A stretch of 64,000 bases of DNA from Candidatus Auribacterota bacterium. GTDB lineage: Bacteria; Auribacterota; JAFGBW01; JAFGJP01. The notes beneath the pieces are model-generated. The model was not told the DNA's origin and did not search any database. It was given only the letters and a program-made list of their open reading frames with translations. The stretch lies in contig JAGLFH010000030.1 in the NCBI GenBank assembly GCA_023144635.1, positions 144,386-208,385 on the forward strand, written 5' to 3'. The stretch's first letter is position 1. The number at the start of each line of letters is the position of its first letter. The position numbers were made by a program, and so were the translations under genes. Below are positions 1,149 through 18,102 of this stretch, one piece after another.

Positions 1149-1225
1149 TTAGTACATCCCCTTAAAGGATAGAGGTAATTTTTTCACAAAATCTTTTGGG
1201 GTGTGGCGCGCAACTGCACCCCAAA
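1141..1225 (+). other. Palindrome over the groEL stop codon plus 9-bp hairpin without U-tract
   Basis: The groEL stop lies inside a perfect 16-bp palindrome, TGTACTAATTAGTACA (1141-1156). About 40 bases further on, TTTGGGGTG (1195-1203) pairs perfectly with CACCCCAAA (1217-1225) around a 13-nt loop. Neither element is followed by a run of T, so a classical intrinsic terminator is not supported; they may be mRNA-processing or stability elements between groEL and rpoZ. Confidence 0.5.
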
Positions 1226-1246
1226 TGCATACAAATGAGGTGAATA

Positions 1247-1561
1247 ATGGATAATAAAATTTCCATGCAGGCGTTAATAGGAAAGACAGATAATATTTAT
1301 AAAGTTGTTCGTGTTGCATCCTTGCGGGCAAAAGAATTGAATATGGGAGGTAAAAGCCTGCTTGATAAGCCTACATCTAAGAACTATGCTACGATCGCAC
1401 TACAAGAGATAATAGCAGATAAGATACACGTTGTTAAAAAATCAGAAGTTTTAGAACAGCAGGATAATAATGAGACGCAGCAGGATAAAGTGAAAAATAT
1501 ATTTAAAGATGACAATGAAGATGGCGGAGAAGAAACTGCTACTGAAGATTCACAAGAATAA
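1247..1561 (+). CDS. rpoZ: DNA-directed RNA polymerase omega subunit
   Basis: Small subunit that assists assembly and stability of RNA polymerase by clamping beta-prime. The 104-residue product carries the family core NIYKVVRVASLRAKEL followed by KNYATIALQEI, then an acidic tail (about residues 75-104) rich in Asp/Glu. The ATG at 1247 is preceded by GAGGTGA. It sits between groEL and grpE, which is an unusual but plausible housekeeping context. The acidic tail is longer than in the E. coli protein, which is common in other phyla. Confidence 0.85.
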   Translation: MDNKISMQALIGKTDNIYKVVRVASLRAKELNMGGKSLLDKPTSKNYATIALQEIIADKIHVVKKSEVLEQQDNNETQQDKVKNIFKDDNEDGGEETATEDSQE

Positions 1562-1579
1562 AAGAGGAATTTTATTGAG

Positions 1580-2254
1580 ATGAAACAAAAGAAAGCACAT
1601 CAGGAAAAGGATGCTTATAAAAAGAACAATGTTAAAGAAAGCTCTGATCCTATGAATGTATATGAAAATAAAAAAGAAACAGATGTCCTTTGTGAAGAAA
1701 AAGAATCTGTAAACTCTGAAAAAGATCTTAAGCTAGAAAGTAATAACGGGGAACAAAATACAGACTATCTTGATCATTTGCAAAGATTACAAGCAGAATT
1801 TGATAACTTTAGAAAAAGGACAGTAAAAGAAAAACAGATGTTTCGAAATTATATACTCGAAGAGTTTGTTGCAAACCTTTTGCCTGTTTTAGATAATTTT
1901 GGTAGAGCAATGGCATCATGTAATGATAAAGACGCTTCTTCGAATCCGTTTATTGAAGGAGTAAAAATGATATATACACAATTCGTGGAAGTACTAAAAG
2001 GATATGGTGTTGAGCCTATTAAAGCAATAGGTGAGGTATTTGATCCTGCTTTTCATGAAGCAGTGGGTACAGAAGAGTCAATTAGTGATGAACACACTAT
2101 CCTGAAAGAAGTTCAGACAGGGTTCAAAATAAATGAAAGAGTTATTCGTCCGTCAGCAGTAATAGTTGCTAAAAATATTAACAATGAAAACTCTCTTGCA
2201 GATGAGGATGCTAATGAAAGTTCTCCTCAAAAGCAGGAAGAATCCGCAGATTAA
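1580..2254 (+). CDS. grpE: Nucleotide exchange factor GrpE
   Basis: Co-chaperone that releases ADP from DnaK. The protein has 224 residues: a charged low-complexity N-terminus (about 1-55), a long coiled-coil helix beginning near LQRLQAEFDNFRKRT, and the C-terminal beta domain with GVEPIKAIGEVFDPAFHEAV and the closing N-RVIRPSAVIVA motif that contacts DnaK. The N-terminal extension and an acidic C-terminal tail are somewhat longer than in E. coli GrpE. It lies 18 bases before dnaK, as expected for a grpE-dnaK operon; no dnaJ follows. Confidence 0.95.
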   Translation: MKQKKAHQEKDAYKKNNVKESSDPMNVYENKKETDVLCEEKESVNSEKDLKLESNNGEQNTDYLDHLQRLQAEFDNFRKRTVKEKQMFRNYILEEFVANLLPVLDNFGRAMASCNDKDASSNPFIEGVKMIYTQFVEVLKGYGVEPIKAIGEVFDPAFHEAVGTEESISDEHTILKEVQTGFKINERVIRPSAVIVAKNINNENSLADEDANESSPQKQEESAD

Positions 2255-2272
2255 TAATAAGGGGGTTCAATT

Positions 2273-4198
2273 ATGGGAAAAATTATAGGAATTGATCTTG
2301 GAACAACAAATTCATGTGTCTCTGTAATGGAAGGCGGCCAGCCGGTAGTTATACCAAATGCAGAAGGCGGCAGAACTACACCTTCAGTAGTTGCATTTTC
2401 TAAAGATGGTGAAATGCTTGTAGGTACTGTTGCTAAACGGCAGGCAATTACAAATCCCGAAAACACCATATATTCCATAAAAAGATTTATGGGACGTAAA
2501 TATAGTGAAGTGGGAAGTGAAATACCTAAAGTTCCTTATAAGGTTATGCAAGGAGATAATGGTGATGTTAAGGTTAGTGTGAGCAAGGGAGTTTTTACTC
2601 CACCAGAAATTTCTGCACGTATCCTTCAAAAAATGAAGCAAACAGCAGAAGATTATCTTGGACAAACAGTTACAGATGCTGTTATTACGGTGCCGGCATA
2701 TTTTAATGATTCTCAAAGACAGGCAACCAAAGATGCTGGAGCTATTGCAGGTCTTAACGTCCTTCGAATAATCAATGAGCCAACGGCGGCATCTCTTGCT
2801 TATGGAATTGATAAAAAGAAAGATGAAAAAATAGCTATCTATGATTTTGGTGGAGGTACATTTGATGTATCTATACTTGAACTCGGAGAGGGTGTATTCG
2901 AAGTAAAAGCTACAAATGGCGATACACATCTTGGAGGAGATGATCTGGATCAGCGTATTATTGATTGGATGGTCGCTGAATTTAAAAAAGATCAGGGAAT
3001 AGATCTATCTAAAGACAGTATGGCTCTTCAAAGGCTTAAAGAAGCTGCAGAAAAAGCTAAATGCGAACTTTCAGGTACTGTTGAGACAGTAATAAATCTT
3101 CCGTTTGTAACTGCAGATCAAAGTGGTCCAAAACATTTGAACATGACTCTTACAAGAGCAAAGTTTGAACAGCTTGTAGATGATTTAATCGAAAGAACAG
3201 TGGAGCCTTGTAAAACGGCTCTTAAAGATGCTGGAATGACAGCTGCAGATATTGATGAAGTAATTCTTGTAGGAGGAACTACAAGGATTCCTAAAGTTCA
3301 GGAATCAGTAAAAAGCCTTTTTAAAAAAGATCCTCATAAAGGCGTGAACCCTGATGAAGTAGTTGCAATAGGAGCTGGGATACAGGGTGGAGTACTAAGT
3401 GGAGAGAGCTCTCTTAAGGATGTTGTTTTACTTGATGTTACACCTCTTTCTCTGGGGATCGAGACTCTTGGCGGAGTTTTTACAAAACTCATTGAGAAAA
3501 ACACTACCATACCTTCTAAGCGAAGCCAGATATTTTCAACAGCTGAAGATAACCAAAATGCAGTAAGTATTAATGTCCTTCAGGGTGAAAGAGAACTTGC
3601 TTCATATAATAGGTCTATAGGAAGGTTTGATCTAGTTGGAGTTCCACCATCACCAAGAGGGGTTCCTCAGATAGAAGTAACTTTTGATATAGATGCAAAT
3701 GGTATTATGCATGTTTCAGCAAAAGACCTTGGAACTGGAAAAGAACAGAAAATAAAGATAGAAACTTCATCAGGGCTTAATGATGAAGAGATAGAACGCA
3801 TGAAAAATGATGCTGAGGCTCATGCTGATGAAGATAAAAAGAAAAAAGAAGAGATCGATATAAAAAATCAGGCAGAGCATTTGGCCTATTCCATGGAAAA
3901 AACTTTAAAAGAGCATGGCGATAAAGTTGATCAGGAAGAAAAGAAAAAAGTAGAAGATGCTATAGCTGAATTAAAAAAAGCAATAGAAACAAATAATGTT
4001 GATGATATTAAAGAAAAAATGGAAGCCTTAAATAAGGCATCTCATAAACTTTCTGAAATGCTTTATAAAGAAGCTACAAAAGCACAACAGCAGCAACAGG
4101 ATACCACTGCTTCCGGCGATGAACCACAAAAAGAACAAAGCAAATCTGATGATGATGTGATCGATGCGGAATATACTGTGGATGATGAAAAAAAATAA
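2273..4198 (+). CDS. dnaK: Chaperone protein DnaK (Hsp70)
   Basis: ATP-dependent cytosolic chaperone. The 641-residue length is typical. The nucleotide-binding domain shows [13 protein letters not shown] (phosphate 1), [14 protein letters not shown] (phosphate 2) and [13 protein letters not shown] (adenosine motif). The interdomain linker [16 protein letters not shown] leads into the substrate-binding domain, and the C-terminus ends in a bacterial-type [10 protein letters not shown] tail. The start ATG follows a strong AAGGGGG site. It is the last gene of the groEL-rpoZ-grpE-dnaK run, and an intrinsic terminator lies directly downstream. Confidence 0.98.
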
Positions 4199-4209
4199 AA
4201 AGCAGGTAA

Positions 4210-4254
4210 ATATTATCCGGCCTTTATTGTAAATGGCCGGATAATATGTTTTTT
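4210..4254 (+). terminator. Intrinsic terminator after dnaK
   Basis: A perfect 13-bp stem, ATATTATCCGGCC (4210-4222) with its complement at 4235-4247, encloses a 12-nt loop and is followed by GTTTTTT (4248-4254). It lies only a few bases before the ribosome-binding site of the next gene, so that gene is either read through or has its own start within this short space. Confidence 0.9.
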
Positions 4255-4267
4255 AAAGGAGTTTCCG

Positions 4268-5590
4268 TTGAAGATCAGCAAAATATTTCCTGCCATTATT
4301 GTTTTAGTTATACTCGTTACTTATATTGTCTTTTTTATGCCTAAAATAAAAACTACTGACAAAATCAAAAAAAGTTCAGAACTCGTTTTTGATATTCCTG
4401 AAGACGTATATTTAGAAAAAATAAATTGTCAAAATATTACTCTTGAAAAATACGGGGCAAATACTCCGTGGATGATCACCAGTCCTATAAACTTTCCTGC
4501 TGACCAAGCTATATGTGCTTCAATAGAAAAGACAATTAAAGAGCTTCCGTTTGAACGTGTTTTTAAAAAAGGTGAACTTTCTCAAGAAAAGCTTAAAAGT
4601 TTAAAGCTTCTTAATGTAAGTGATAGAAATATGTTGAATTTTTTGTACAATTCTGGCAAAGAAAAGTTAAGTTATAGTATTGCTGTAGGAGCTGATACAC
4701 CTATCGACAGTTTTTGTTACATCAGATTTTTAAGCAATGATATTGTATATGTAATAGGGCGCGGAATAAAAGGCCTTCTATATAATCCCATAGAAATTTT
4801 TGCTGATAAGGCAATTTTTAAAGATATCAATATTACTGCATGTAAAAGTTTTAAGATATCAGGTGAAAAAGTAAATCTAACCATTGCGCGTGAAGGTGAA
4901 AAAGAACATTTAATATTAAAAAATCCGTATATTGCTTTTATAAATGCAGATTCTTTAGAAAGATTATTTAAAAATATTGAAGATATCAGAATAGAAAGAT
5001 TTCTTGAAATTCCTGTTAAGTCTGAATTTATAAACAAGATAGTCTGGGATAACAATAGCAGTGTTACAGAACTTATCTTAACAGAATCTGAAGAGAATAG
5101 AGAGACTATTGCTCGTTTTAAAGGGGATGATAATTATTTTTATATTCCATCTAAAAAAGTGCGTAAAATTATTAAGGAAGATATCTATAAAGATCTATTA
5201 TCTAGGAAAATAACACCTTTTGAAGTTGAAGAGGTGAAAAATATAATAATAAAAGTTAATGGCGAGATGATCTTCCTTAAAAATGAAGACGTTTGGAAAT
5301 ATAAAATGGATGAAGGCGAAAAAAAGACTTCATATGGGGCTTTAATGCTTGCAAAAAATATAATAAATATAAAAATTAACGAATATAAAAATAAGGAAGA
5401 TCTTGAACCATTAGAACAATATATTGATATAATTTTTGTTTTTTCAAAGAACAAAAAATATGATGTTAGTATAAATAAAGGAAAGAGCGGAAATATTTAT
5501 TCAACAATGGATGATAAGCTTTATGGAGTAATTGAAGATATAGATATAGAATTTCTTGAAAATATGATAGATCTTATACGCGTTGATTAA
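4268..5590 (+). CDS. Membrane-anchored DUF4340-like protein
   Basis: A 440-residue protein with one N-terminal hydrophobic segment (about residues 6-26) and a large, probably periplasmic, remainder. The repeated pattern of a short beta strand followed by W-K/W-M segments and the overall shape resemble DUF4340 proteins, which have no firmly known function and are often found near ABC-type gliding/export systems; no such genes are adjacent here. The TTG at 4268 is chosen because AAAGGAG lies just upstream and the hydrophobic anchor immediately follows. It lies 13 bases before the FmdB-type gene. Function is not claimed. Confidence 0.6.
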   Translation: MKISKIFPAIIVLVILVTYIVFFMPKIKTTDKIKKSSELVFDIPEDVYLEKINCQNITLEKYGANTPWMITSPINFPADQAICASIEKTIKELPFERVFKKGELSQEKLKSLKLLNVSDRNMLNFLYNSGKEKLSYSIAVGADTPIDSFCYIRFLSNDIVYVIGRGIKGLLYNPIEIFADKAIFKDINITACKSFKISGEKVNLTIAREGEKEHLILKNPYIAFINADSLERLFKNIEDIRIERFLEIPVKSEFINKIVWDNNSSVTELILTESEENRETIARFKGDDNYFYIPSKKVRKIIKEDIYKDLLSRKITPFEVEEVKNIIIKVNGEMIFLKNEDVWKYKMDEGEKKTSYGALMLAKNIINIKINEYKNKEDLEPLEQYIDIIFVFSKNKKYDVSINKGKSGNIYSTMDDKLYGVIEDIDIEFLENMIDLIRVD

Positions 5591-6149: not shown

Positions 6150-6182
6150 TTTATTGTTTATGTGAATACAAGGAACAATAAA

Positions 6183-6809
6183 ATGAAATCAGCAAAACAG
6201 ATAATTTTAAGATTATTTCAATATCGAGAATTTTTAATGCGAGCTAAAAGTATCGGAATAAAAAATGTTTATTCTGATACTTTAGCAGAAGCTTTAGGTT
6301 CTACTGCAACACAAGTTCGAAAGGATTTTTCATTGTTTGGAATCACTGGCAATAAGCGTGCAGGTTATAAGCTAGATGATTTATTAAGTCAATTAAGCGA
6401 GTTATTGGGAAAAAATCAAAAACAAAAAATAATTATTGCCGGAGCTGGAAATTTAGGAAAAGCATTAATGCAGTATGATGGATTTAAAAAAGAGGGTATA
6501 GAAATTGTTGCGCTTTTTGACAATGATCCTGTGAAGGTAAATATAGAGAGCAGTCCTCCAATACTTCCAATTGAAAGACTGTTTGAATTTATTGGAAAGA
6601 ATAAAATCAATTTAGGAGTTATAGCTGTTCCCTATTTTGCAGCACAACAAATGCTGGATTTAATGATTTTAGCAGGAATTAAAGGTGTTTTGAATTTTGC
6701 ACCAATTTCTTTAAAGTCACCTAAAGATTTTTTTATTAATGATATTAATTTACGTCTTGAACTTGAAACTGTAGCCTATTTTATTAAGCCGCTAAAACAA
6801 GAAGATTAA
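6183..6809 (+). CDS. rex: Redox-sensing transcriptional repressor Rex
   Basis: Dimeric DNA-binding repressor that releases DNA when NADH is high. The 208-residue protein has the N-terminal winged helix with the family-specific recognition stretch ATQVRKDFSLFG and a C-terminal NAD(H)-binding Rossmann fold with IIIAGAGNLGKAL. The ATG at 6183 is chosen because AAGGAA lies eight bases upstream; an in-frame GTG at 6162 would lie almost at the predicted transcription start and has no ribosome-binding site. The Rex-type operator directly upstream and the hydrogenase genes downstream agree with the known role of Rex in controlling fermentative and hydrogen metabolism. Confidence 0.92.
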   Translation: MKSAKQIILRLFQYREFLMRAKSIGIKNVYSDTLAEALGSTATQVRKDFSLFGITGNKRAGYKLDDLLSQLSELLGKNQKQKIIIAGAGNLGKALMQYDGFKKEGIEIVALFDNDPVKVNIESSPPILPIERLFEFIGKNKINLGVIAVPYFAAQQMLDLMILAGIKGVLNFAPISLKSPKDFFINDINLRLELETVAYFIKPLKQED

Positions 6810-6824: not shown

Positions 6825-8657
6825 ATGAAACCAATAAAATTGAAAATAAAAATAATGTTATCTATTTTATATGTAATTATTTTTCTTGGTTTATGTATGT
6901 CTGTTTTTGGATATTTTGTTTTAAAAAAATACGTTTACGAAAGTGCTCAAGAAAAAGTTGTCAAAGATTTGGAAATTGTTAGAGATGCTTATGACCAGAA
7001 GTTAAAAGAAATGAAATTAGCTTTCAATATGATTAATGAAGCTAATGATCTGGGTTTAATGCGTGAATATTTACATCTTGATTATTTGTATTGGGTGCCG
7101 ATATCTAAAATAGATGAGGAATCAAGCGAGATCATTAAAAAAGTTTTAAATTCAGCTCAGGATACCGGTGGTACTCGAATAATTTCAAAAAAACAAATAT
7201 CACGCTTGTTTGCGGGTATAGAAGGTATAAAAATCAAACCAACACCTAAAGCCTGCCCTACTGATAAAAAACTATTAGAAAGTATAATGTCTATAGAATA
7301 TGCAAAACCTTACTTAAATGCTAAAGGTAAAATAGAAAAAATATTAGTTGGCGGTAAGCTTATAAATAAAAACTTCCAGTTTATTGATAATATTGTAAAT
7401 ACTGTATTTGAAAATAGACTTTATGAAGGTAAACCTGTTGGAACAATTACTCTTTTCCAAAATGATGTACGAATAGCAACAAATGTATTAGATAAAAATG
7501 GTAAAAGAGCCATTGGAACACGTGTTTCAGAAGTTGTCTATAAAAGAATATTTGAACAAAAAGAAAAGTGGCTGGATAGAGCTTTTGTTGTTACTGATTG
7601 GTATGTTACAGCTTATGAACCCATTAAAAATATAAATGGAAATGTGATTGGTATTCTTTATGTAGGAATATTAGAAAAACCTTTTGTTGAATTTCAGAAA
7701 AACTTATTTATTGCATTATTAATAATAATTTTTTCAGGATGTATTATATCTATTTTTTTCTCAATGTTTATTTCAAAATCCATAGCTGTACCACTTACTA
7801 AGGTTATAAAAAGTACAAATCAGATTTCTAATGGTAATTTAGGAATAAAAATAGAATCAGAAACTGACATTTATGAACTTAATGAATTGATATCTGCTGT
7901 TAATGATATGTCAATGACATTGATACATAGAGAGGAAAGTTTAGATATTTCAAACAAAAAATTAGAGGTATTAAATAAGAGTTATTTAGATTTAATCGGT
8001 TTCGTTTCTCATGAATTAAAAGGTATTTTATCTTCTATTATTTTAAATGTTTATTTAATTAGAAAAAGAATACTTGGAAACATAAGCGAAAAGCAAGAAA
8101 AAACGCTTAACTCTATTGCTCGTAATTTAGATTATTTGGCTGTCACTGTTAAGAATTTTTTAAACTTAAGCCGGATTGAAAAGAATGAAATTGAAATCAA
8201 TAAAAGTCAAATACTTTTAAAAGAGCATATTTTTGATGTTGCTATTGAAGCTTTTGAGCAGCCGTTAAAGGATAAGGAAATGTACTTGCAAAATAATATA
8301 GCAAAAGATTTATCTGTTAATGCGGATTCTGCTTTGATGCAAATAGTTGCAAATAACTTGATTAGCAATGCTATAAAATATGGTAAACCTCGTGGGGAAA
8401 TAGTATTGAAATCAAGTGAAAAAGACGATGTCTTGGAAATAGAAGTTTATAATGACGGAGAAACTATTTGTGACGTTGATATTGAAAAATTGTTTAAAAA
8501 GTTTTCTCGAATTGTTTATAGGGGTATGGAAAGTATAAAAGGCTCTGGTATAGGGCTGTATATTACTAAAGAAATTATCAAGCTTCATGGTGGAACAATT
8601 AAAGTAGAGCCTAGTAAAAAAGGCAATTCTTTCATATTTAGTATTGATAAAGATTAA
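6825..8657 (+). CDS. Sensor histidine kinase with extracytoplasmic Cache domain and HAMP
   Basis: A 610-residue membrane kinase. It has a transmembrane helix at about 11-33, a periplasmic Cache-type sensor (about 34-292; GTITLFQNDVRIATN and WYVTAYEPIKN-NGNVIGILYVG are typical of the Cache_3-Cache_2 class), a second transmembrane helix (about 294-316) and HAMP (about 317-370). A HisKA domain with H396 in FVSHELKG follows, then an HATPase domain with the N box NNLISNAIKYG and GSGIGLYITKEI. It starts 15 bases after rex and is followed by the receiver-HydC fusion, so it is the natural candidate for phosphorylating the two receivers in this locus. Such Cache domains often bind small organic ligands; the ligand here is unknown. 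Confidence 0.9.
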   Translation: MKPIKLKIKIMLSILYVIIFLGLCMSVFGYFVLKKYVYESAQEKVVKDLEIVRDAYDQKLKEMKLAFNMINEANDLGLMREYLHLDYLYWVPISKIDEESSEIIKKVLNSAQDTGGTRIISKKQISRLFAGIEGIKIKPTPKACPTDKKLLESIMSIEYAKPYLNAKGKIEKILVGGKLINKNFQFIDNIVNTVFENRLYEGKPVGTITLFQNDVRIATNVLDKNGKRAIGTRVSEVVYKRIFEQKEKWLDRAFVVTDWYVTAYEPIKNINGNVIGILYVGILEKPFVEFQKNLFIALLIIIFSGCIISIFFSMFISKSIAVPLTKVIKSTNQISNGNLGIKIESETDIYELNELISAVNDMSMTLIHREESLDISNKKLEVLNKSYLDLIGFVSHELKGILSSIILNVYLIRKRILGNISEKQEKTLNSIARNLDYLAVTVKNFLNLSRIEKNEIEINKSQILLKEHIFDVAIEAFEQPLKDKEMYLQNNIAKDLSVNADSALMQIVANNLISNAIKYGKPRGEIVLKSSEKDDVLEIEVYNDGETICDVDIEKLFKKFSRIVYRGMESIKGSGIGLYITKEIIKLHGGTIKVEPSKKGNSFIFSIDKD

Positions 8658-8683: not shown

Positions 8684-9577
8684 ATGAAGTATTTAATACT
8701 GCTAATCGATGATGATTCGGATTTTGTAGAAGCTACTAGGTTGTTGTTAGAAGCTAATGATTATAAAGTAATTACTGCAAAAAATGGACAGGAAGGCTTC
8801 CAAAAAGTAAAAAAAGAGTCACCGAACTTAATTATATTAGATATGATGATGACTTATAAGACTGAAGGTGCCGAAACAGCAAAAGCTATTACAGCAGATG
8901 CGTCAACTAAAGATATTCCCTTAATAATGATAACAGGAGCTAGAAAAGAATTTTCTTTTCCTTTTGAGCTTAAAGCTAATCAGCCAGGATTGCCTGTTAA
9001 AGTTATCTTAGAAAAACCTGTAGACCCTGAGCATTTACTTAAAACAGTCGCTTTATATATAGCAAAAAGGGGAGATGAACCTGTAAAAAAGCAGGTAGAA
9101 GTAAAAAATTTAATCAATAAATGGCAGGATAAAGAAGGTAATTTAATTATGATATTGCATGAGCTTCAGAATTATTATGGTTATATACCTCGAGATGTTG
9201 CTTTTAATCTAACAAGAGATTTAGGCATTCCTTTAGCTAGAATTTATGAAGTAATTTCCTTTTATCACTATTTTCAGCTTGAGCCTCCGGGCAAGCATAT
9301 TATTTCTGTTTGTATGGGGACAGCCTGTTATTTAAAGGGGGCTACTCAATTATTTAAAGAGTTAAAAGATATTCTGAATATTGAAGAGGGAGAAATAACA
9401 AAAGATGGCTTATTTCAATTAAAGGGAGTTAGATGTATTGGCTGTTGTGGGCTTGCTCCTGTAATTATGATAGATGAAAAAGTTTATGGCAATTTAAAAG
9501 CAGGAGATTTAATGGATATTATTTCTCAATATAGCAATAAGTCTGAAAAGAGTGTTAAAGAAGGAGTAGTAGTATGA
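8684..9577 (+). CDS. Response-regulator receiver fused to NuoE/HydC-like [2Fe-2S] hydrogenase subunit
   Basis: A 297-residue fusion. Residues 1-130 are a complete receiver: acidic pocket D9-D11, phosphoacceptor D53 (LIILD), T84 and K111 (EKP). Residues about 136-285 are a NuoE/HydC/HndA-type thioredoxin-like [2Fe-2S] subunit with the ligand pattern C210-x4-C215 (CMGTAC) and C251-x3-C255 (CIGCC), plus the usual N-terminal helical part (LHELQNYYGYIPRDVA). NuoE-like subunits feed electrons to or from the flavoprotein in NADH-linked and electron-bifurcating hydrogenases. A receiver domain is not a normal part of this family. The same frame is open through both domains, with no stop or shift. The next gene overlaps its stop by 4 bases (ATGA), which argues for tightly coupled translation. 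Confidence 0.93.
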   Translation: MKYLILLIDDDSDFVEATRLLLEANDYKVITAKNGQEGFQKVKKESPNLIILDMMMTYKTEGAETAKAITADASTKDIPLIMITGARKEFSFPFELKANQPGLPVKVILEKPVDPEHLLKTVALYIAKRGDEPVKKQVEVKNLINKWQDKEGNLIMILHELQNYYGYIPRDVAFNLTRDLGIPLARIYEVISFYHYFQLEPPGKHIISVCMGTACYLKGATQLFKELKDILNIEEGEITKDGLFQLKGVRCIGCCGLAPVIMIDEKVYGNLKAGDLMDIISQYSNKSEKSVKEGVVV

Positions 9578-9925: not shown

Positions 9926-11665
9926 ATGCAGAACCAAAAGAAAATTATATTAGTTAAAGATACAAATATGGATAAAGAAACATCTAGCATGATTGATAAA
10001 TTCTTGTTTGGCCTTCGTGAAAGAGGATTGAGTGAGGATGTCAAAGTAATACGTGCTGCTGACCTTAATATTTATAATAAAGGTGTAGTCGTTAAAATTT
10101 GGCCGGAAAATATTACTTATGCAAATGTAAAAAAAGATGATATTGATTTGATTATTCATAGAACTGTCGAGAATGGCAAAAATATTGATGAACTTCTTGT
10201 AAGTGAAACAAATAAACAGCTGCGTATTGTATTAAGAAACTGTGGAATTATTGACCCTGAAAAGATAGATGATTATTTGGATAATGAAGGCTATTGTGCT
10301 TTGGCAAAAGTTCTTTCTGAATATAGTCCTGATGAGGTTATTGAACAGATGAAAATTAGTGGACTTAGAGGTAGAGGCGGCGGCGGATTTCCAACATGGA
10401 TGAAATGGAATTTTGCCAAAGCACAAAAAGAGGAAACAAAATATATTATATGTAATGCTGACGAAGGTGATCCGGGTGCTTATATGGATCGTAGCGTTTT
10501 GGAAGGAGATCCGCATTCTGTCATCGAGGGAATGATAATTGCCGGATATACTGTTGGAGCCCAAAAAGGTTATTTATATATTAGAGCAGAATATCCTTTA
10601 GCTATTAAAAGAATAACTTTAGCGATAAATCAGGCAAGAGAGAAGGGGCTTTTAGGTGATAATATATTAGGTACAGATTTTTCTTTTGATCTAGATGTAC
10701 GCTTGGGTGCAGGAGCTTTTGTTTGTGGAGAAGAAACAGCCTTGATCGCTTCTATAGAAGGGAAAAGAGGATGTCCCTCTCCAAGGCCACCTTATCCATC
10801 TGTAAACGGATTATGGGGAAAACCTACTATTATTAATAATGTAGAGACCTTAGCCAATATTGCTCCTATTTTGCATAATGGTGGTGATTGGTTTGCATCA
10901 ATTGGCACAGAGAAATCCAAAGGAACAAAAGTGTTTGCATTAACGGGGAAAGTTAATAATTCAAGCTTAATTGAAGTTCCTATGGGGACTACGCTAAGAG
11001 ATATTGTTTATAACATAGGCGGCGGTGTTTTAAATAACAAAAAAATAAAAGCTGTTCAAACCGGAGGCCCTTCCGGAGGAGTTATTCCGGAGAATCTTTT
11101 AGATACATCAATTGATTATGAAAATCTGCAGAGGCTTGGTTCCATAATGGGGTCTGGAGGTATGATAGTTATGGACGAAGACGATTGTATGGTAGATATA
11201 GCAAAGTTCTACCTTCAATTTTGTGTAGATGAATCTTGTGGTAAATGTGCGCCTTGCCGAATTGGTGGAAAGCAGATGCTTAATATTTTGAGTAATATTT
11301 CTGAAGGTAAAGGAGATTTGGAAGATATTTCCAGTTTAAAAAGAATATCCCAAGCATTACAAAAAGCATCACTCTGTGGTCTGGGGCAGACAGCACCGAA
11401 CCCCGTTGTTTCTACTTTAAAACATTTTGAAGAGGAATATATTGAACATATAAATGAAAAAATATGTAGGGCAAAAAAATGTTCATTACTTTCAATTTAT
11501 GAAATTATTGAGGAGAAATGTAAACGATGTTCACTTTGTCAGAGAAGTTGTCCTGTTGAGGCAATAAATGGAAATAGAGAAGTTGGTTTTACTATTGATC
11601 AGGAAAAGTGTATTAAATGTGGAAAATGTTTTGAAGTGTGTAAATTTGAAGCAGTTTCTCTATAA
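9926..11665 (+). CDS. NuoF/HydB-like NAD(P)H- and FMN-binding hydrogenase subunit
   Basis: A 579-residue flavoprotein subunit of a multimeric [FeFe] hydrogenase. Domains in order: a thioredoxin-like N-terminal region (about 1-95) that has lost its Cys residues; the NuoF core with the FMN/NADH motifs [14 protein letters not shown] and [14 protein letters not shown], then [13 protein letters not shown]; an SLBB-like part; the [4Fe-4S] N3-type site [13 protein letters not shown] with a fourth Cys in [12 protein letters not shown]; and a C-terminal two-cluster ferredoxin ([11 protein letters not shown] and [11 protein letters not shown]). This layout is typical of HydB/HndC of electron-bifurcating or NADP-reducing hydrogenases. 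HydA follows 40 bases downstream with no terminator between. Confidence 0.92.
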
Positions 11666-11705: not shown

Positions 11706-13451
11706 ATGGGAAAAGCATATATTAACAAAATAGAAGTTGATTTTAACGATGGAGATACTATTCTCGAGACCGCTTCTAGTGTACAGATAAAAATTCCTAC
11801 ATTATGTAAGCATCCCGATCTGTCCCCGACAGGAGGCTGCGGTATTTGTGTTGTTAAAATTGAAGGTACAAATAAGATGCTTCGTGCCTGTTGTACGAAA
11901 ATTGAAGACGGAATGAAAATAATAACCCACGACCCAGAAATTGTTGAGATAAGAAGAACAGTAATCGAACTTATCTTATCTGATCATCCTAACGACTGTT
12001 TGATATGTGGACGGAATAATAATTGTGAGTTACAAACCATTGTTGCAGATTTTGGAATTAGAGAAGAATCTTTTGAGAAAATAGTAAAAGAAATACCGCA
12101 AGACAAATCAACCGGAACCATTAAACTGGAACCTTCAAAATGTATTAAATGTGGAAGATGTATTGAAGTTTGCCAGGATATTCAAAATGTTTGGGCTCTT
12201 TCGTTTTTAGAAAGAGGTATCAATACGCGTATGGCACCTGCAGGGGATATACAGTTAAAAGATTCTCCCTGTGTTAGATGTGGACAATGTTCCGCTCATT
12301 GCCCAACAGGAGCAATTTTTGAACATGATCATACAAGAGAAGTTTGGGCGGAACTGCAGAATCCGGATATGCATTGTATTGTTCAAATAGCTCCGTCGGT
12401 AAGAGTTGCTGTTGGGGAAGGTTTCGGCTATGCTCCTGGAGAGAATCTGACTAATAAACTATATGCTGCATTAAGACGTTTAGGTTTTAATACGGTTTTT
12501 GATACAAATTTTTCTGCAGATGTAACTATCATGGAAGAAGCTAGCGAATTTGTTGAAAGATTTGTTCATAAAAAAGGTGTTTTGCCTCTAATAACTACAT
12601 GTTGTCCTGCTTGGGTGGATTTCATGGAAAAATTTCATACTGATATTATACCTCATTTTTCTTCTGCAAAATCTCCTCAGGAAATAATGGGGACGTTATG
12701 TAAGACATATTATGCTGAAAAGAAAGGTATTGATCCAAGTAAAATACGAGTTATATCAATTATGCCTTGTACCGCTAAAAAATATGAAATCTCCAGATCT
12801 AATGAAATGTTTGCATCAGGTTATCAGAGTACAGACTTTGTTTTGACTACGAGAGAATTGATTAGAATGATAAAACAAGCAGGGATTGATTTTAATTTTA
12901 TTGAAGGCGAAGAACCTGATAATTTAATGGGTGATTATTCCGGTGCAGGAACTATTTTTGGTGTAACTGGCGGAGTCATGGAGGCAGCTCTAAGAACAGC
13001 ACATCATTTTATTACAGGAAATAAGTTAGAAAAAGTTGAATTTGAAAATGTTCGCGGACTTGATGGTGTAAAAGAAACATCTGTTGAAATTAGCGGAAAT
13101 ATTTTAAAAATAGTTGTTGCGCATGGTCTTGGTAATGTAGAATATGTGTTGAATAAAGTCAAGGAAGCAAAAGATAAAGGCAAAGAGATTCCATATCATT
13201 TTATTGAGGTTATGGCATGTTCTGGTGGCTGTATAGGCGGTGGAGGTCAACCCTATGGTGTTACGGATGAGATTAGAAAAGCACGTGCAAAAGGTCTATA
13301 TTCTGATGATAAAAACAGTGAAGTAAGGTGTAGCCATGAAAATCCATTTATTAAACAACTATACAAAGAGTTTTTAGGTGAACCTTTAAGTGAAAAAGCA
13401 CATCATTTGTTACATACAAAATATGTACCGAGGCCTGAATATAAAAAGTAG
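11706..13451 (+). CDS. hydA: [FeFe] hydrogenase catalytic subunit HydA (multi-subunit type)
   Basis: Catalyses reversible proton reduction to H2 at the H-cluster. The 581-residue protein has an N-terminal [2Fe-2S] ferredoxin domain (C34, C45, C48, C62/C63 region), a His-ligated cluster region (HPNDCLICGRNNNCELQ, about 94-110), a double [4Fe-4S] ferredoxin (CIKCGRCIEVC about 146-156 and CVRCGQCSAHC about 189-199) and the H-domain. H-cluster motifs are L1 TTCCPAW with C299/C300, L2 MPCTAKK with C355 and L3 MACSGGC with C505/C509. L1 has T where S is usual and L3 has S506 where P is usual. The gene lies after HydC- and HydB-like subunits and before the maturases. Confidence 0.95.
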   Translation: MGKAYINKIEVDFNDGDTILETASSVQIKIPTLCKHPDLSPTGGCGICVVKIEGTNKMLRACCTKIEDGMKIITHDPEIVEIRRTVIELILSDHPNDCLICGRNNNCELQTIVADFGIREESFEKIVKEIPQDKSTGTIKLEPSKCIKCGRCIEVCQDIQNVWALSFLERGINTRMAPAGDIQLKDSPCVRCGQCSAHCPTGAIFEHDHTREVWAELQNPDMHCIVQIAPSVRVAVGEGFGYAPGENLTNKLYAALRRLGFNTVFDTNFSADVTIMEEASEFVERFVHKKGVLPLITTCCPAWVDFMEKFHTDIIPHFSSAKSPQEIMGTLCKTYYAEKKGIDPSKIRVISIMPCTAKKYEISRSNEMFASGYQSTDFVLTTRELIRMIKQAGIDFNFIEGEEPDNLMGDYSGAGTIFGVTGGVMEAALRTAHHFITGNKLEKVEFENVRGLDGVKETSVEISGNILKIVVAHGLGNVEYVLNKVKEAKDKGKEIPYHFIEVMACSGGCIGGGGQPYGVTDEIRKARAKGLYSDDKNSEVRCSHENPFIKQLYKEFLGEPLSEKAHHLLHTKYVPRPEYKK

Positions 13452-13486: not shown

Positions 13487-13870
13487 GTGAGCAAGAGAAT
13501 ATTAATTATTGATGATGATCCTGATTTTGTGCAAGCAGTTGTTAATTTGCTGGAAGCAAATAATTATGAAGTAGCTACAGCAAATAATGGAGAAAATGGA
13601 TTAAGCAAGGCAAAAGAAATAGTTCCTGATTTAATTACTTTAGATTTAATGATGACTAATGATAGTGAAGGTTTTGATATTAGCAAAAAAATCAATGAAG
13701 ATGATTTATTGAAAGATATTCCTATTATAATGATCTCAGGAGTTAAGAAGTTTGATAATTGTGCCTATGATTTTGAAACTGGTAAAAAAACAATTCCAGC
13801 AAAAGCTTTTCTTGAAAAACCAATTAATCCTGAGAAGCTGTTAAGTACTATTAAGCAGCATATCGGATAA
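13487..13870 (+). CDS. Stand-alone response-regulator receiver, paralogue of the fused receiver
   Basis: A 127-residue single-domain receiver with D9-D11, phosphoacceptor D53 (LITLD), a Ser in the Thr/Ser position (IIMISG) and Lys in LEKP. It shares with the receiver fused to the HydC-like subunit the same N-terminus, LLEAN-Y-V, MMT followed by S/TEG, and the EKP--PE-LL ending, so the two look like recent duplicates. AAAGGAGG precedes the start codon GTG at 13487. Lacking an output domain, it probably acts by protein contact, as a phosphate sink or as a shuttle for the upstream kinase. Confidence 0.9.
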   Translation: MSKRILIIDDDPDFVQAVVNLLEANNYEVATANNGENGLSKAKEIVPDLITLDLMMTNDSEGFDISKKINEDDLLKDIPIIMISGVKKFDNCAYDFETGKKTIPAKAFLEKPINPEKLLSTIKQHIG

Positions 13871-13990: not shown

Positions 13991-14022
13991 ATTATTATTA
14001 ATATTAAAAAGGAGAAATGGTA

Positions 14023-14274
14023 ATGCAAAAACAAAGGTTAGGATTTGTAGGGATTATAGTAGAGGATAGAATAAAATCAGCAGATCCTGTAAATCATATT
14101 TTATCTGATTATGGAAATCATATAGTTGCTAGAGTAGGGATCCCATATAAAGGGAAAAACTGTAGTGTTATTACGCTTGTTATTGATATGACAACAGATG
14201 AGCTTGGATCATTAACAGGAAAATTGGGTTCTTTAAAAGGTGTTTTAATTAAATCAGCATTAATGCAAAAGTAA
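14023..14274 (+). CDS. TM1266-type iron-only hydrogenase system putative regulator
   Basis: An 83-residue protein resembling the small ACT/NikR-C-like TM1266 family that recurs beside [FeFe]-hydrogenase maturation genes; its exact role is not established. Visible features are RLGFVGIIVEDR at the N-terminus, a central IVARVGIPYKGKNCSVITLVID strand region and the ending LKGVLIKSALMQK. ATG 14023 is preferred to ATG 14017 because AAAAAGGAG then lies eight bases upstream; with 14017 the spacing would be only about two bases. It is followed by hydF after 22 bases. Confidence 0.82.
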   Translation: MQKQRLGFVGIIVEDRIKSADPVNHILSDYGNHIVARVGIPYKGKNCSVITLVIDMTTDELGSLTGKLGSLKGVLIKSALMQK

Positions 14275-14296: not shown

Positions 14297-15556
14297 ATGA
14301 AAATAACACCAAAGTCATTACGTTTACAAATTGGTATTTTTGGACGCACAAATGTAGGAAAGTCCAGTTTTTTAAATTTGATCTCAGGACAGGATGTTGC
14401 CATCACATCGCAAGTTCCTGGAACGACCACTGATGTTGTTGAAAAAGTAATGGAATTGCTTCCAGTAGGACCTGTTGTATTTCTAGATACTGCAGGGATA
14501 GATGATAATTCGCTTTTATCAGAAAAAAGAATTTATAAAACAAATAAGATTTTTAATAGGGCAGATGTAATTGTTCTGGTAATAGAACCTAATAAATGGA
14601 GCAGTTTTGAAGAGAGTATAGTTGAATCAGCACAAAAATATAATACTCCTCTGATTATTGTTATAAATAAGTCAGACATAGAAAATCCTTTAAATGAATT
14701 TATTTCTTCATTAAAGGAAAGGTCTGCTCAAGTAATGACTTGTTCTAGTACAGATGTTGATCGCAGGGATAAATATGTTCATAGATTTAAAGCTCTTTTA
14801 ATGTCTATTTGTCCGAAGAGTTTTTTAAATCCACCGCCATTGCTTGGTGATTTAATACCTAAAGGGAAAATGGCTGTATTTATTATTCCTATTGATAAAG
14901 AAGCTCCTAAAGGAAGAATTATACTGCCACAAGTACAGGCTATACGAGATATTCTTGATCATGGTCAATCAGTTGTTGTCGTAAGAGAATTAGAATATAA
15001 AAAAGTTTTAGCACAATTGAAGGAGCCGCCGGCTTTAGTTGTATGTGATTCACAAGTAGTAGATAAAATGGTTGCGGAGACACCTGACAATGTGAAATGT
15101 ACAACTTTTTCAATTTTATTAGCTAGATTAAAAGGTGATTTAGTTACATTAGTAAAAGGCATAGCTGCTTTAGAAACATTAAAGGAAAACGACAGTATTC
15201 TTATTGCAGAGAGTTGTTCTCATCATGCTATTGAAGACGATATTGGAAGAATTAAAATACCTAAATGGTTAAACAAATACAAAGGTTTTAATGTTAAATG
15301 GGATGTTAGTTCTGGGAGAGATTATCCTGATGACCTAAAAAAATATAAGTTAGTGATACATTGTGGAGCTTGCATGATTACAAGAAGAGAGATGTTGACA
15401 AGGATAGAAAAAGCAGCTCAGGAAGGTGTGTTTGTAACGAATTATGGAATATGTATTTCCCTAATGCATAATGTAATAGAAAGAGTTCTTGAACCTTTTA
15501 AAGATTCGCTGGATGCATATTTCAAAACAAAACAAACATTAGAAGGAGTAAAATAA
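14297..15556 (+). CDS. hydF: [FeFe] hydrogenase maturation GTPase HydF
   Basis: Scaffold on which the 2Fe subcluster is assembled before transfer to HydA. The 419-residue protein has an N-terminal GTPase domain with G1 GRTNVGKSS (16-24), a DTAG G3 motif and NKSD G4 motif, a dimerisation domain, and a C-terminal cluster-binding domain with SCSHH and HCGACMITRRE, matching the C-x-H plus HC-x2-C type ligand set of HydF. It starts 22 bases after the TM1266-type gene and ends 2 bases before hydG, indicating one transcript for the maturation genes. Confidence 0.95.
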   Translation: MKITPKSLRLQIGIFGRTNVGKSSFLNLISGQDVAITSQVPGTTTDVVEKVMELLPVGPVVFLDTAGIDDNSLLSEKRIYKTNKIFNRADVIVLVIEPNKWSSFEESIVESAQKYNTPLIIVINKSDIENPLNEFISSLKERSAQVMTCSSTDVDRRDKYVHRFKALLMSICPKSFLNPPPLLGDLIPKGKMAVFIIPIDKEAPKGRIILPQVQAIRDILDHGQSVVVVRELEYKKVLAQLKEPPALVVCDSQVVDKMVAETPDNVKCTTFSILLARLKGDLVTLVKGIAALETLKENDSILIAESCSHHAIEDDIGRIKIPKWLNKYKGFNVKWDVSSGRDYPDDLKKYKLVIHCGACMITRREMLTRIEKAAQEGVFVTNYGICISLMHNVIERVLEPFKDSLDAYFKTKQTLEGVK

Positions 15557-15558
15557 TA

Positions 15559-17055
15559 ATGCAGATAAAGGAACAAAACGAAATAAATTGGATTGACAGT
15601 CGCATTAAGCAAGATGAAATTGATAAATATCTGGATAATGGAAAGTGTTTTTTAGATGAAATTGAAATAAATAATGCATTAAAAGATAATTGTGAGCCGG
15701 ACTCCAATTATATTAGAAAGATATTAAATAAATCTTTAATGATAAAAAATTTATCATTAAAAGAAACAGCTGCTCTATTAAATGTAAAGGATCCTGATGT
15801 TTTGTCAGAAATGAAAGATGCTGCACTAAAGATAAAAAAGAAGGTTTATGATAATAGAGTTGTTACTTTTGCTCCATTATATTTGGGTAATTATTGTGTT
15901 AATAATTGTCTTTATTGCGGTTTTAAAAAAGATAATATTGATGCGCAAAGAAAAGTTTTAGATCATCAGGAAATAATTAATGAAACAAAAGCATTGGCTG
16001 GTGAAATAGGACATAAACGGCTCATTGTTGTTTATGGTGAACACCCAAAAAATGATATTGATTATATCGTAGATAGCATAAGCACAATCTATAATGTAAA
16101 AGTAAAAGCAAGGCAGGGCGAAGGAAATATCAGGCGGGTTAATGTTAATGCGCCTCCTTTTGCAATCAATGATTTAAAAAAATTGCCTCAAGTTGGTATA
16201 GGGACTTATCAGGTTTTTCAGGAAACTTATCACAGGCAAACTTATGAGCATATACATCCTTCTAATACTATTAAAGGAAATTACCTTTGGAGGCTTTATG
16301 CGATGCACAGAGCTTTTGAAGCAGGAATTGATGATATCGGTCTAGGAGTTTTATTTGGTTTGTATGATTGGAAGTTTGAAGTCATGGCTTTAATTAAACA
16401 TTCATTAGAATTGGAAAGGGTATTTGGAATTGGTCCGCATACGGTTTCTTTTCCTCGTTTAGAGCCAGCACTAAATACAAAGATGGATGATTTAATGAAT
16501 TATCAAGTATCTGATGAAGATTTTAAAAAGATAATTTTAGTTTTGCGATTATCAATCCCGCATACAGGTATGATTATTACTGCTAGAGAAAGCGGTGCAA
16601 TGAGAAAAGAATCACTTGAGCTTGGAGTTACACAAATGGATGCTTCTACAAAAATTGGGGTTGGAGCATATCAAAAAGATACCAATATACAGGATGAACA
16701 CAAACAACAATTTATTTTAGGAGATCAAAGAAGCCTTGATGAATTAATTAGAGAATTGTGTTCAGAAGGAATGATAACATCTTTTTGTACGGCAGGTTAT
16801 AGATGCGGACGAACTGGGAAATGTATTATGGACCTTCTCCGTAAAGGAGAGGAAGGGAAGTTTTGTAAGTTAAATGCCATTATTACTTTTCAAGAATGGT
16901 TGGATGATTTTTCAAGTGAAGATACTAAGAAAATTGCAAGACCTATCATTGAAAAGGAAATCAATGAAGTCCAAGAAAAATACCCAGAAATTTATCCAAA
17001 ATTTAAGGAATTTTATGAAAGAACTAAAAATGGGGAACGCGATTTATATATATAA
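15559..17055 (+). CDS. hydG: [FeFe] hydrogenase maturation radical SAM tyrosine lyase HydG
   Basis: Cleaves tyrosine to supply CO and CN ligands and an Fe(CO)2(CN) synthon for the H-cluster. The 498-residue protein has the radical SAM site C113-x3-C117-x2-C120 (CVNNCLYC) and a ThiH-like barrel. The C-terminal auxiliary cluster of HydG normally uses C-x2-C-x22-C. Here positions 410, 413 and 436 fit that spacing exactly, but 413 is Gly (FCTAGYRCGRTG); C416 and C422 lie nearby and could substitute. The rest of the C-terminal domain looks intact, so it is called functional with an atypical auxiliary site. Confidence 0.93.
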   Translation: MQIKEQNEINWIDSRIKQDEIDKYLDNGKCFLDEIEINNALKDNCEPDSNYIRKILNKSLMIKNLSLKETAALLNVKDPDVLSEMKDAALKIKKKVYDNRVVTFAPLYLGNYCVNNCLYCGFKKDNIDAQRKVLDHQEIINETKALAGEIGHKRLIVVYGEHPKNDIDYIVDSISTIYNVKVKARQGEGNIRRVNVNAPPFAINDLKKLPQVGIGTYQVFQETYHRQTYEHIHPSNTIKGNYLWRLYAMHRAFEAGIDDIGLGVLFGLYDWKFEVMALIKHSLELERVFGIGPHTVSFPRLEPALNTKMDDLMNYQVSDEDFKKIILVLRLSIPHTGMIITARESGAMRKESLELGVTQMDASTKIGVGAYQKDTNIQDEHKQQFILGDQRSLDELIRELCSEGMITSFCTAGYRCGRTGKCIMDLLRKGEEGKFCKLNAIITFQEWLDDFSSEDTKKIARPIIEKEINEVQEKYPEIYPKFKEFYERTKNGERDLYI

Positions 17056-17064
17056 ACGGTGATT

Positions 17065-18102
17065 ATGAATAAAAAGGAAATGCTCTATTGGTTAAATGAG
17101 AATGATTTAACTAAATGTAAAAAATTATTTGAACGTGCATATGAAATTAAGATAAATGCTGTAGGGAAAACTGTATATTTTAGAGGAATTATTGAACTTA
17201 GTAACATATGTCAAAAAAATTGTTATTATTGTGGTGTCAGAAGAGATTCAGAGATAAACAGATATTCGCTATTACAAACAGAGATACTTGATTCTGCCGA
17301 ATTTGCTTATAAAAAAGGATATGCTTCAATTGTTATTCAAGCTGGAGAACAAACGAGTGAAAAGTATACAGCTTTTATTAGTGATACAATTAAAAAAATA
17401 AAAGACCTTTCTAAAGGAGAACTTGGAATTACATTATCTCTAGGAGAGCAAACTAAAGATGTTTACAAAAAATGGTTTAGTGCAGGTGCTCATAGATATT
17501 TACTCAGGATAGAAACATCTTCAAAAGATCTATATAAAAAGTTACATCCACAGGATCATTTATTTAAAGAAAGAGTAATATGTTTATATGATCTTAAAGA
17601 TATAGGATATCAGGTAGGTACTGGTGTTATGATAGGTCTGCCTTATCAGAAAAATAGTGATTTAGCAGAGGATCTCTTGTTTTTTAAAAAGAATGATATT
17701 GATATGATTGGGATGGGACCATACATCTTTTGTGAAAAGACACCATTAAGTAAATTTAAAATTGATTTAAATAACAATTTTTATCTTTCATTAAAGATGA
17801 TTGCACTTACAAGAATTATTATGCCTGATATTAATATTGCGGCAACAACTGCTTTACAAGCCATTGATCCTGTGGGTAGAGAAAAAGCGCTACAAGTAGG
17901 AGCAAATATTATTATGCCAAATATTACTCCTAAAAAGTATAGAGTAGATTATCAGCTTTACAATAATAAACCTTGTTTAAGTGAAGAAGCTTTTATGTGT
18001 CAAGAATGTCTTGAAACGAGAGTAAAAGTAATAGGAGAAAATATTGGATATAATAAATGGGGTGATTCTATTCATTTTTATAAAAGAATTAAGTGTAAGT
18101 AA
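17065..18102 (+). CDS. hydE: [FeFe] hydrogenase maturation radical SAM protein HydE
   Basis: Radical SAM enzyme of the BioB-like family required to build the dithiomethylamine-bridged diiron unit. The 345-residue protein has C49-x3-C53-x2-C56 (CQKNCYYC) followed by GVRRDSEINRY, a BioB-like barrel, and a C-terminal CQECLET segment. ATG 17065 is preferred because GGTGATT lies just before it; an in-frame GTG at 17059 lacks a ribosome-binding site. It begins about ten bases after hydG and is the last gene of the hydrogenase island; the following genes are convergent. Confidence 0.93.
   Translation: MNKKEMLYWLNENDLTKCKKLFERAYEIKINAVGKTVYFRGIIELSNICQKNCYYCGVRRDSEINRYSLLQTEILDSAEFAYKKGYASIVIQAGEQTSEKYTAFISDTIKKIKDLSKGELGITLSLGEQTKDVYKKWFSAGAHRYLLRIETSSKDLYKKLHPQDHLFKERVICLYDLKDIGYQVGTGVMIGLPYQKNSDLAEDLLFFKKNDIDMIGMGPYIFCEKTPLSKFKIDLNNNFYLSLKMIALTRIIMPDINIAATTALQAIDPVGREKALQVGANIIMPNITPKKYRVDYQLYNNKPCLSEEAFMCQECLETRVKVIGENIGYNKWGDSIHFYKRIKCK

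Follow-up and report, generated by a model that had tools for sequence, protein, structure and literature searches.

The window, that is, the whole stretch of 64,000 nucleotides analysed here, contains a cluster of eleven genes running from a Rex-type repressor gene to the gene of the HydE maturase, all located on one strand and separated by gaps of no more than 146 bases (Table 1). The cluster encodes a putative HydABC-type [FeFe] hydrogenase, the predicted HydC subunit of which is fused at its N-terminus to a response-regulator receiver domain.

Table 1 Genes of the hydrogenase cluster in the window, with the profile matches or other evidence for each.
Feature	Coordinates	Strand	Evidence
Rex-type redox-sensing repressor, first gene of the cluster	6162..6809	+	NF003996, 230.6 bits vs cut-off 138
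sCache_3 histidine kinase, 610 aa	6825..8657	+	sCache_3_3, HAMP, HisKA, HATPase_c above Pfam cut-offs
Receiver-NuoE/HydC fusion, 297 aa	8684..9577	+	Pfam domains, key residues, 11 orthologues
Probable thioredoxin-like [2Fe-2S] protein, 116 aa	9574..9924	+	PF01257, 19.4 vs 24.8; NF041612, 24.9, below cut-off
HydB, NuoF-like FMN/NADH subunit	9926..11665	+	Complex1_51K, NADH_4Fe-4S, Fer4; bifurcation motifs (19 protein letters not shown)
HydA, [FeFe] hydrogenase catalytic subunit, group A6 model	11706..13451	+	NF040763, 786.5 bits vs cut-off 765
RR2, second single-domain receiver	13487..13870	+	Response_reg, 73.4 bits; 47% identical to the fused receiver
TM1266-family hydrogenase-linked putative regulator	14017..14274	+	TIGR03959, 97.8 bits vs cut-off 60.8
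HydF maturation GTPase	14297..15556	+	TIGR03918, 511.9 bits vs cut-off 325.55
HydG maturase	15559..17055	+	TIGR03955, 448.7 bits vs cut-off 312.15
HydE maturase	17059..18102	+	TIGR03956, 346.7 bits vs cut-off 254.6

The fusion gene and its neighbours

The receiver occupies residues 1-123 of the fusion protein and the NuoE-like part residues 139-284, with a junction at about residues 124-138. Both halves were recognized by Pfam, namely Response_reg (PF00072) at residues 5-122 (E 7.9e-17, 61.9 bits against a cut-off of 30.2) and 2Fe-2S_thioredx (PF01257) at residues 141-283 (E 2.6e-47, 160.7 bits against a cut-off of 24.8). The receiver is not a pseudo-receiver, as it possesses the complete phosphoacceptor set consisting of D9, D10, D11, D53, T84 and K111, and the NuoE half contains the cluster ligands C210, C215, C251 and C255. 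The original prediction of a single 297-codon frame with an intact receiver and a NuoE-like half is borne out by these domains and residues. The best NCBIfam match of the NuoE half is HoxE (154.6 bits, under the cut-off of 224), and the scores for the NuoE models PRK07539.1-2 (127.2 vs 141) and nuoE_fam (123.5 vs 142.4) are likewise under their cut-offs, so that, as far as these models can classify it, the half is NuoE-like and neither a complex I NuoE nor a Hox HoxE proper.

No in-frame ATG, GTG or TTG codons were found around the junction of the window copy (about residues 116-152), which makes the production of free NuoE from an internal start unlikely there, and the junction of one relative, L031 (loci are numbered with L and genomes with G), likewise has no internal start codon. 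The other ten relatives do have in-frame start codons near the junction, preceded in three of them (L026, L027 and L030) by a Shine-Dalgarno-like stretch, and may form such a second product. According to the predicted structure (mean pLDDT 77), a receiver helix at residues 115-129 is followed by a NuoE helix at residues 132-147. The receiver is joined about where the HydC of Acetobacterium woodii begins, since residue 6 of the latter aligns with residue 133 of the fusion. Both folds are present in the prediction, the domain packing is not fixed (pTM 0.58) and superposition of the NuoE half on solved HydC chains is poor (rmsd 10-11 Å); the helix positions alone were used and the packing was left out.

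The kinase gene adjoins the fusion gene upstream. Its product shows the H-box, N-box and G-boxes in an alignment of nine kinase cores and contains two hydrophobic stretches, which begin close to residues 3-17 and 290-306. On the other side, the gene for the 116-aa [2Fe-2S] protein overlaps the fusion gene by 4 bases; other loci, L036 and L052 among them, have its homologue contained in the HydB frame.

Bifurcating enzymes are described as having, in HydB, A/E and M at the NADH region, an F close to the FMN, and GGPSG (PMC7311640). In the window HydB, the NADH region contains A and M, an F lies close to the FMN, and GGPSG is present (21 protein letters not shown), the positions being read from the alignment with A. 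woodii HydB and not from direct T. maritima numbering, and it also possesses a C-terminal ferredoxin-type 2x[4Fe-4S] part. The NF040763 model which HydA passes bears the name 'NADH-dependent' and not 'bifurcating'. The enzyme is predicted to be electron-bifurcating as read from the HydB motifs only, which speaks in favour of the class proposed for it originally.

RR2 contains S at the position of T84 in the receiver alignment, and its score against the DVU0259 family is 88.2 bits, under the cut-off of 160. No DNA-binding or other output domain was found with Pfam on either the fused receiver or RR2, which makes the enzyme itself the probable target of the signalling. RR2 was also considered as the sole target of the kinase and rejected: among the fusion operons it is present only in the window and in L021-L024, it was not found behind HydA in five others (L025, L026, L028, L029 and L030), and three of the latter (L026, L029 and L030) have another separate receiver upstream.

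A second sensor kinase encoded in the window (57191-59563, minus strand) is unconnected with the hydrogenase; its best matches are the WalK and PnpS models, below their cut-offs.

The fusion and the kinase in related genomes

In one scan of named genome contigs, the full-length fusion was detected in 11 of 49 loci (L021-L031). Ten of the carriers are Omnitrophota, including eight genomes titled Omnitrophota or Omnitrophica, Ca. Aceula meridiana and Ca. Gygaella obscura, and the eleventh is titled 'bacterium'. The source organism stands near the Omnitrophota, the best relative (88% identity) bearing that title. Judging by their titles, the genomes originate from several metagenome projects, with a few coming from one project. 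No full-length match beyond the window's own was found among the matches listed for 59 relatives, and none at E <= 1e-45 in the 44 genomes of the phylum set, which are mostly the same as the 59.

HydB and HydA are encoded downstream of the fusion in all 11 relatives. The refuting outcome considered with the original prediction, namely that relatives lack the fusion, was not borne out, 11 other genomes carrying it. The occurrence of the same full-length fusion in relatives from several metagenome projects removes misassembly as an explanation, and together with a split form that keeps the same gene order (L111, see below) it rules out an assembly or gene-calling artefact, to which we assign practically no probability.

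Compared with the window fusion, the receivers are 89% to 28% identical and the NuoE parts 90% to 60%, the junction being the most variable. The dN/dS values, readable in two pairs as dS was saturated in the other six computed, are 0.022 (L022/L023) and 0.017 (L026/L029) for the receiver, and 0.022 and 0.043, respectively, for NuoE. These values indicate that the receiver half is under purifying selection and about as constrained as NuoE. The fused receivers group weakly in the receiver tree (84/62), and in a quick tree of HydA+HydB (49 rows) the fused forms are split between two groups, one of which has an unfused clade next to it. A single origin of the fusion is therefore not established: the HydA+HydB tree implies two changes, either a gain and a loss or two separate gains.

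When whole genomes were searched with the window kinase as a query, an orthologue (E <= 1e-40) was found in nine of the 11 fusion genomes, directly upstream of the fusion in eight loci and on another contig in L023, where the fusion contig ends just before the fusion. No orthologue at this threshold was found in L027 and L031. The gene located directly before the fusion in L027 codes for Rex, and in L031 there are folC- and pyrC-like genes, as recognized by eye.

The state of the receiver follows this distribution. In the window and the nine kinase-bearing relatives, D9, D53, T84 and K111 are kept in 10 of 10 fusions and D10 in nine (D10N in L025). The receiver of L027 has the substitutions D10N, D11N and T84I, and that of L031, which scores under the Pfam receiver cut-off, has D9E, D10S, D53S and T84L, with the four NuoE cysteines intact in both, as they are in all 12 fusions. 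The set of D9, D53, T84 and K111 is intact in 10 of 10 kinase-bearing fusions vs 0 of 2 kinase-less ones (Fisher p = 0.015, kinship ignored); because the genomes are relatives of one another, these counts do not represent independent events, and the kinase-less genomes, only two in number, are drafts that can miss genes. When L027 was compared with two relatives, the nonsynonymous difference was 0.27 and 0.24 in the receiver and 0.12 in NuoE, giving a ratio of 2.1-2.3, as against 0.5-1.3 in six kinase-bearing pairs.

The receiver half might be a structural or left-over domain having no signalling role, and L031, which keeps a degenerate receiver half and no kinase, fits such an explanation. 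Since the receiver-like half is kept there after the loss of D53, the domain may act without phosphate in that lineage. Nevertheless, the four residues kept in every kinase-bearing fusion, the receiver dN/dS of about 0.02 in two pairs and the faster change where the kinase is gone make a mere remnant improbable.

The adjacent kinase is likely to be the partner of the fused receiver, the two forming a cognate two-component pair by the adjacency of their genes, the intact kinase boxes and their co-occurrence. This had been proposed from the window, and the receiver damage in both kinase-less fusions, as well as the occurrence of related receivers and kinases in the same nine of 384 genomes (see below), is what makes it likely. 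The name 'Cache kinase' given to this partner holds for the window, where the adjacent protein does contain sCache_3, but not for L030, the kinase of which (7290-7979) is a 229-aa HisKA-HATPase core with no sensor part and nonetheless accompanies intact receiver residues.

The architecture of the kinase also bears on the suggestion that phosphorylation decides whether the hydrogenase is placed at the membrane kinase, or how Hyd(ABC) units are put together, with electron transfer as such left untouched. Phosphorylated receivers commonly dimerize or bind partners. The window kinase has its two hydrophobic stretches, and seven orthologues are of similar length (608-619 aa); besides, HydABC is a tetramer of trimers in T. 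maritima (PMC9499530). We consider such a switch quite unlikely, given that the L030 kinase has lost its sensor part, yet its receiver is intact, and that the receiver is a separate small protein in other lineages.

With two receivers beside one kinase in the window, L021, L022 and L024 (L023 is cut before the kinase), the fused receiver could alternatively serve only as a drain for kinase phosphate that sharpens the signalling to RR2 or to an unlinked regulator. This would, however, give no reason for the fusion to HydC, five fusion operons have no RR2 behind HydA, and the constraint on the receiver half is similar to that on NuoE, which leaves very little probability for a phosphate sink.

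Some other features were noticed near the fusions. In L026 (1147-5778), L029 (1136-5763) and L030 (2279-6913), a second, different [FeFe] hydrogenase cluster consisting of Rex, a separate receiver, NuoE, a short HydB and HydA precedes the kinase and the fusion. Between the two hydrogenase clusters and adjoining the kinase, there is a small gene coding for a carboxymuconolactone-decarboxylase-like protein (5781-6119 in L026, 5781-6119 in L029 and 6950-7297 in L030; PF02627 was tested in L026). In L028, repeated short frames and a Cas4-like protein, recognized by eye at about 633-4708 before Rex, suggest a CRISPR array next to the hydrogenase genes.

Separate receivers near hydrogenase genes

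A receiver profile of 11 rows (A1) was searched against 384 genomes, and the kinase was searched alone in the same genomes, with the best few candidates per genome scored in each case. Receivers of at least 170 bits were found in nine genomes, the next genome scoring 142 bits, and kinases of at least 387 bits in nine genomes, the next one scoring 249 bits. The two sets are identical (G000, G002, G004, G013, G019, G026, G171, G280 and G304); G000, G002, G004 and G013 had given rows to the receiver profile and the other five had not. In eight of the nine, the window's own genome apart, a separate receiver gene lies within an [FeFe] hydrogenase cluster or at its end, a frequent order of these unfused genes being Rex, kinase, HydB, HydA, NuoE, receiver. 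In G004, G019 and G171, all or some of the kinase match is located on a different contig.

Of the 38 loci with unfused NuoE, 21 were tried, and in none of these 21 genomes was the kinase found at E <= 1e-40, nor was it found in G001, G011 and G017, which were tried beside the nine genomes. Among 32 genomes, receivers of at least 140 bits occur only in the nine kinase-bearing ones, and in none of the 21 with unfused NuoE.

The second cluster of G280 (L111) contains a receiver gene, followed after 11 bases (as measured between the longest frames) by NuoE, a 2Fe-2S protein and HydB, with the NuoE being 60% identical to that of the window. By its gene order, this cluster is a split form of the fusion. 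The identity of the two sets of nine genomes and the separate receivers in [FeFe] clusters indicate that a hydrogenase-linked two-component module exists, the receiver of which is here a part of HydC; on the same comparison, the fusion represents one version of this module, the receiver of which is elsewhere a single-domain protein of its own.

The neighbourhood of related receivers was assessed in 68 stretches, of which 63 were kept after L075-L078 (no receiver) and the duplicate L164 had been dropped. Genes of [FeFe] or [NiFe] hydrogenases or of Hdr were located on the same strand within 6 kb of the receiver in 8 of 8 stretches scoring at least 170 bits, 10 of 17 at 125-170 bits, 8 of 17 at 105-125 bits and 2 of 21 at 85-105 bits. 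Pooled, this gives 26 of 42 vs 2 of 21 (Fisher p = 1e-4), with tier limits and score cut-offs set after the list was known and with stretches that are not independent because several come from one genome (e.g. G144 and G280). The sample covers a part of the receiver matches, with the range of roughly 100-110 bits hardly represented. Loci L070-L074 had been chosen for a receiver already seen near NuoE (L070, L071 and L072 also gave profile rows), and L113, L115, L118 and L127 (all positive) and L121 supplied reference proteins; without these ten biased loci and L079, the counts are 17 of 32 vs 1 of 20 (Fisher p = 3e-4).

In L113, L115, L121, L127, L118 and L125, related single-domain receivers are located beside [NiFe] hydrogenase, Hyp or HdrA-like genes, some of them with an adjacent kinase, which hints at a possible general class. 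The receiver of L113 lies near a [NiFe] large subunit (PF00374) and that of L118 near an HdrA-like protein, recognized by eye and by its ferredoxin and FAD domains; both loci belong to the middle score tiers. The neighbours of [NiFe] hydrogenases have been reported to include a response-regulator cluster, partly with DNA-binding domains (PMC12727194). In L157 and L148, frames beside the receivers weakly match HydA and the kinase profile, and these may encode sensory hydrogenase-kinase proteins.

Possible role of the receiver and comparison with known systems

The explanation that we prefer, and hold to be rather probable, is that the kinase phosphorylates D53 of the receiver on HydC and so tunes electron sharing in the predicted bifurcating HydABC hydrogenase. 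The gene product would be the HydC of a HydABC-type [FeFe] hydrogenase with a working phosphoreceiver at its N-terminus, and the adjacent sCache histidine kinase would phosphorylate D53 in response to a signal, which is probably an extramembrane small molecule. Since there is hardly any linker between them, the change in the last receiver helix caused by phosphorylation is proposed to pass directly into the first HydC helix, where it would shift the position or the potential of the HydC [2Fe-2S] cluster and thereby tune how electrons are divided between ferredoxin, NAD(H) and H2. The amount of the enzyme would be controlled by Rex and the way in which it works by the kinase. The fusion, its conservation, the dependence of the receiver residues on the kinase and the hydrogenase operon are supported by the comparisons made here; the phosphotransfer, the signal, what Rex does and, most of all, how electron flow is affected are inferences, the last being a choice between cluster potential, bridge movement and assembly.

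The HydC cluster of T. maritima HydABC is located 12 Å from B1, near the bridge domains, and has been called likely important for bifurcation in a study that does not settle this role (PMC9499530). For HoxE, a relative of NuoE, two conformations have been proposed, with cluster potentials more than 100 mV apart and directing ferredoxin reactions (PMC11647496). On the basis of this cluster position and the two-conformation proposal, the phosphate on D53 is suggested to shift such an equilibrium.

The flow of information might also be the reverse, with the hydrogenase acting as a sensor and the redox or turnover state of HydC making the receiver inhibit or drain the kinase in a FixT-FixL-like manner, the final output then being another receiver, either RR2 or an unlinked one. 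An Fe-S-binding receiver-type protein, FixT, has been proposed to be a redox sensor and inhibits its kinase (PMC7078487). A second receiver, RR2, is available in the window and L021-L024, and the L030 kinase has no sensor part, so its signal must originate in another component, perhaps in the complex. On the other hand, RR2 was not found behind HydA in the five operons named above, three of which have another separate receiver upstream, neither operon receiver of the window has an output domain, and the fused receiver, unlike FixT, contains no cysteine (residues 1-124). Moreover, where the kinase is lost, receiver residues are lost too, which would be expected if the receiver accepts phosphate, so the sensor role seems unlikely, if still worth bearing in mind.

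Signalling pairs that respond to hydrogen or to the redox state are familiar chiefly as switches of gene expression. If phosphorylation of the receiver does tune the hydrogenase, a cell signal would act at once on a central anaerobic energy-coupling enzyme, on the enzyme itself instead of its genes, a single aspartate, D53, would provide a handle on the role of the HydC cluster in bifurcation, and the related receivers would be candidates in other lineages. A broader proposal, which we regard as evenly balanced, is that two-component phosphorylation directly sets the direction or tightness of ferredoxin-NAD(H)-H2 coupling through the receiver on HydC, and that a wider unrecognized class of single-domain receivers are signal-controlled parts of hydrogenase complexes, be they [FeFe], [NiFe] or Hdr-linked.

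Among the matches listed, consisting of titles and abstract starts of openly licensed PubMed Central papers, no receiver-NuoE fusion or receiver in a bifurcating hydrogenase was described, and text searches within PMC6288185, PMC9304861, PMC11406978 and PMC10066038 showed none either. The parts of the system are of known kinds; a phosphoreceiver in a bifurcating-type hydrogenase subunit with a kinase adjacent is new in the sense of being undescribed among these open-paper matches.

Sensory [FeFe] hydrogenases (HydS/HfsB) are likewise tied to signalling, the PAS-bearing hydrogenase being itself the proposed sensor or regulator (PMC11837493), whereas the window has a receiver on HydC instead, and no PAS or kinase domain was detected in its HydA with Pfam, so that it does not belong with these proteins. 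FixT of Caulobacter also combines a receiver fold and Fe-S chemistry in one kinase-linked protein, but it has its own 4-Cys motif and inhibits FixL (PMC7078487), while in the window the cluster belongs to the enzyme subunit and the receiver is cysteine-free. The mycobacterial Rv3143 (MSMEG_2064), whose gene lies by those of a NuoE/F/G-type redox complex, is another receiver lacking a DNA-binding domain; it is an orphan response regulator proposed to be a component and modulator of complex I, a separate protein said to bind NuoD and reported not to be phosphorylated by the kinases tried (PMC9274095). The window receiver differs from it in being covalently a part of the NuoE subunit and in having a kinase next to it, and is thus not an orphan of the Rv3143 type. 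The HydABC enzymes of Thermotoga maritima (7P5H), Acetobacterium woodii (7Q4V) and Thermoanaerobacter kivui (8A6T) likewise have HydA, HydB and HydC encoded in one operon, and bifurcating HydABC enzymes share with the window the HydC cysteines, the HydB motifs and the C-terminal ferredoxin-type 2x[4Fe-4S] part. Compared to them, the window HydC has the additional N-terminal phosphoreceiver, and its operon contains a kinase and a second receiver.
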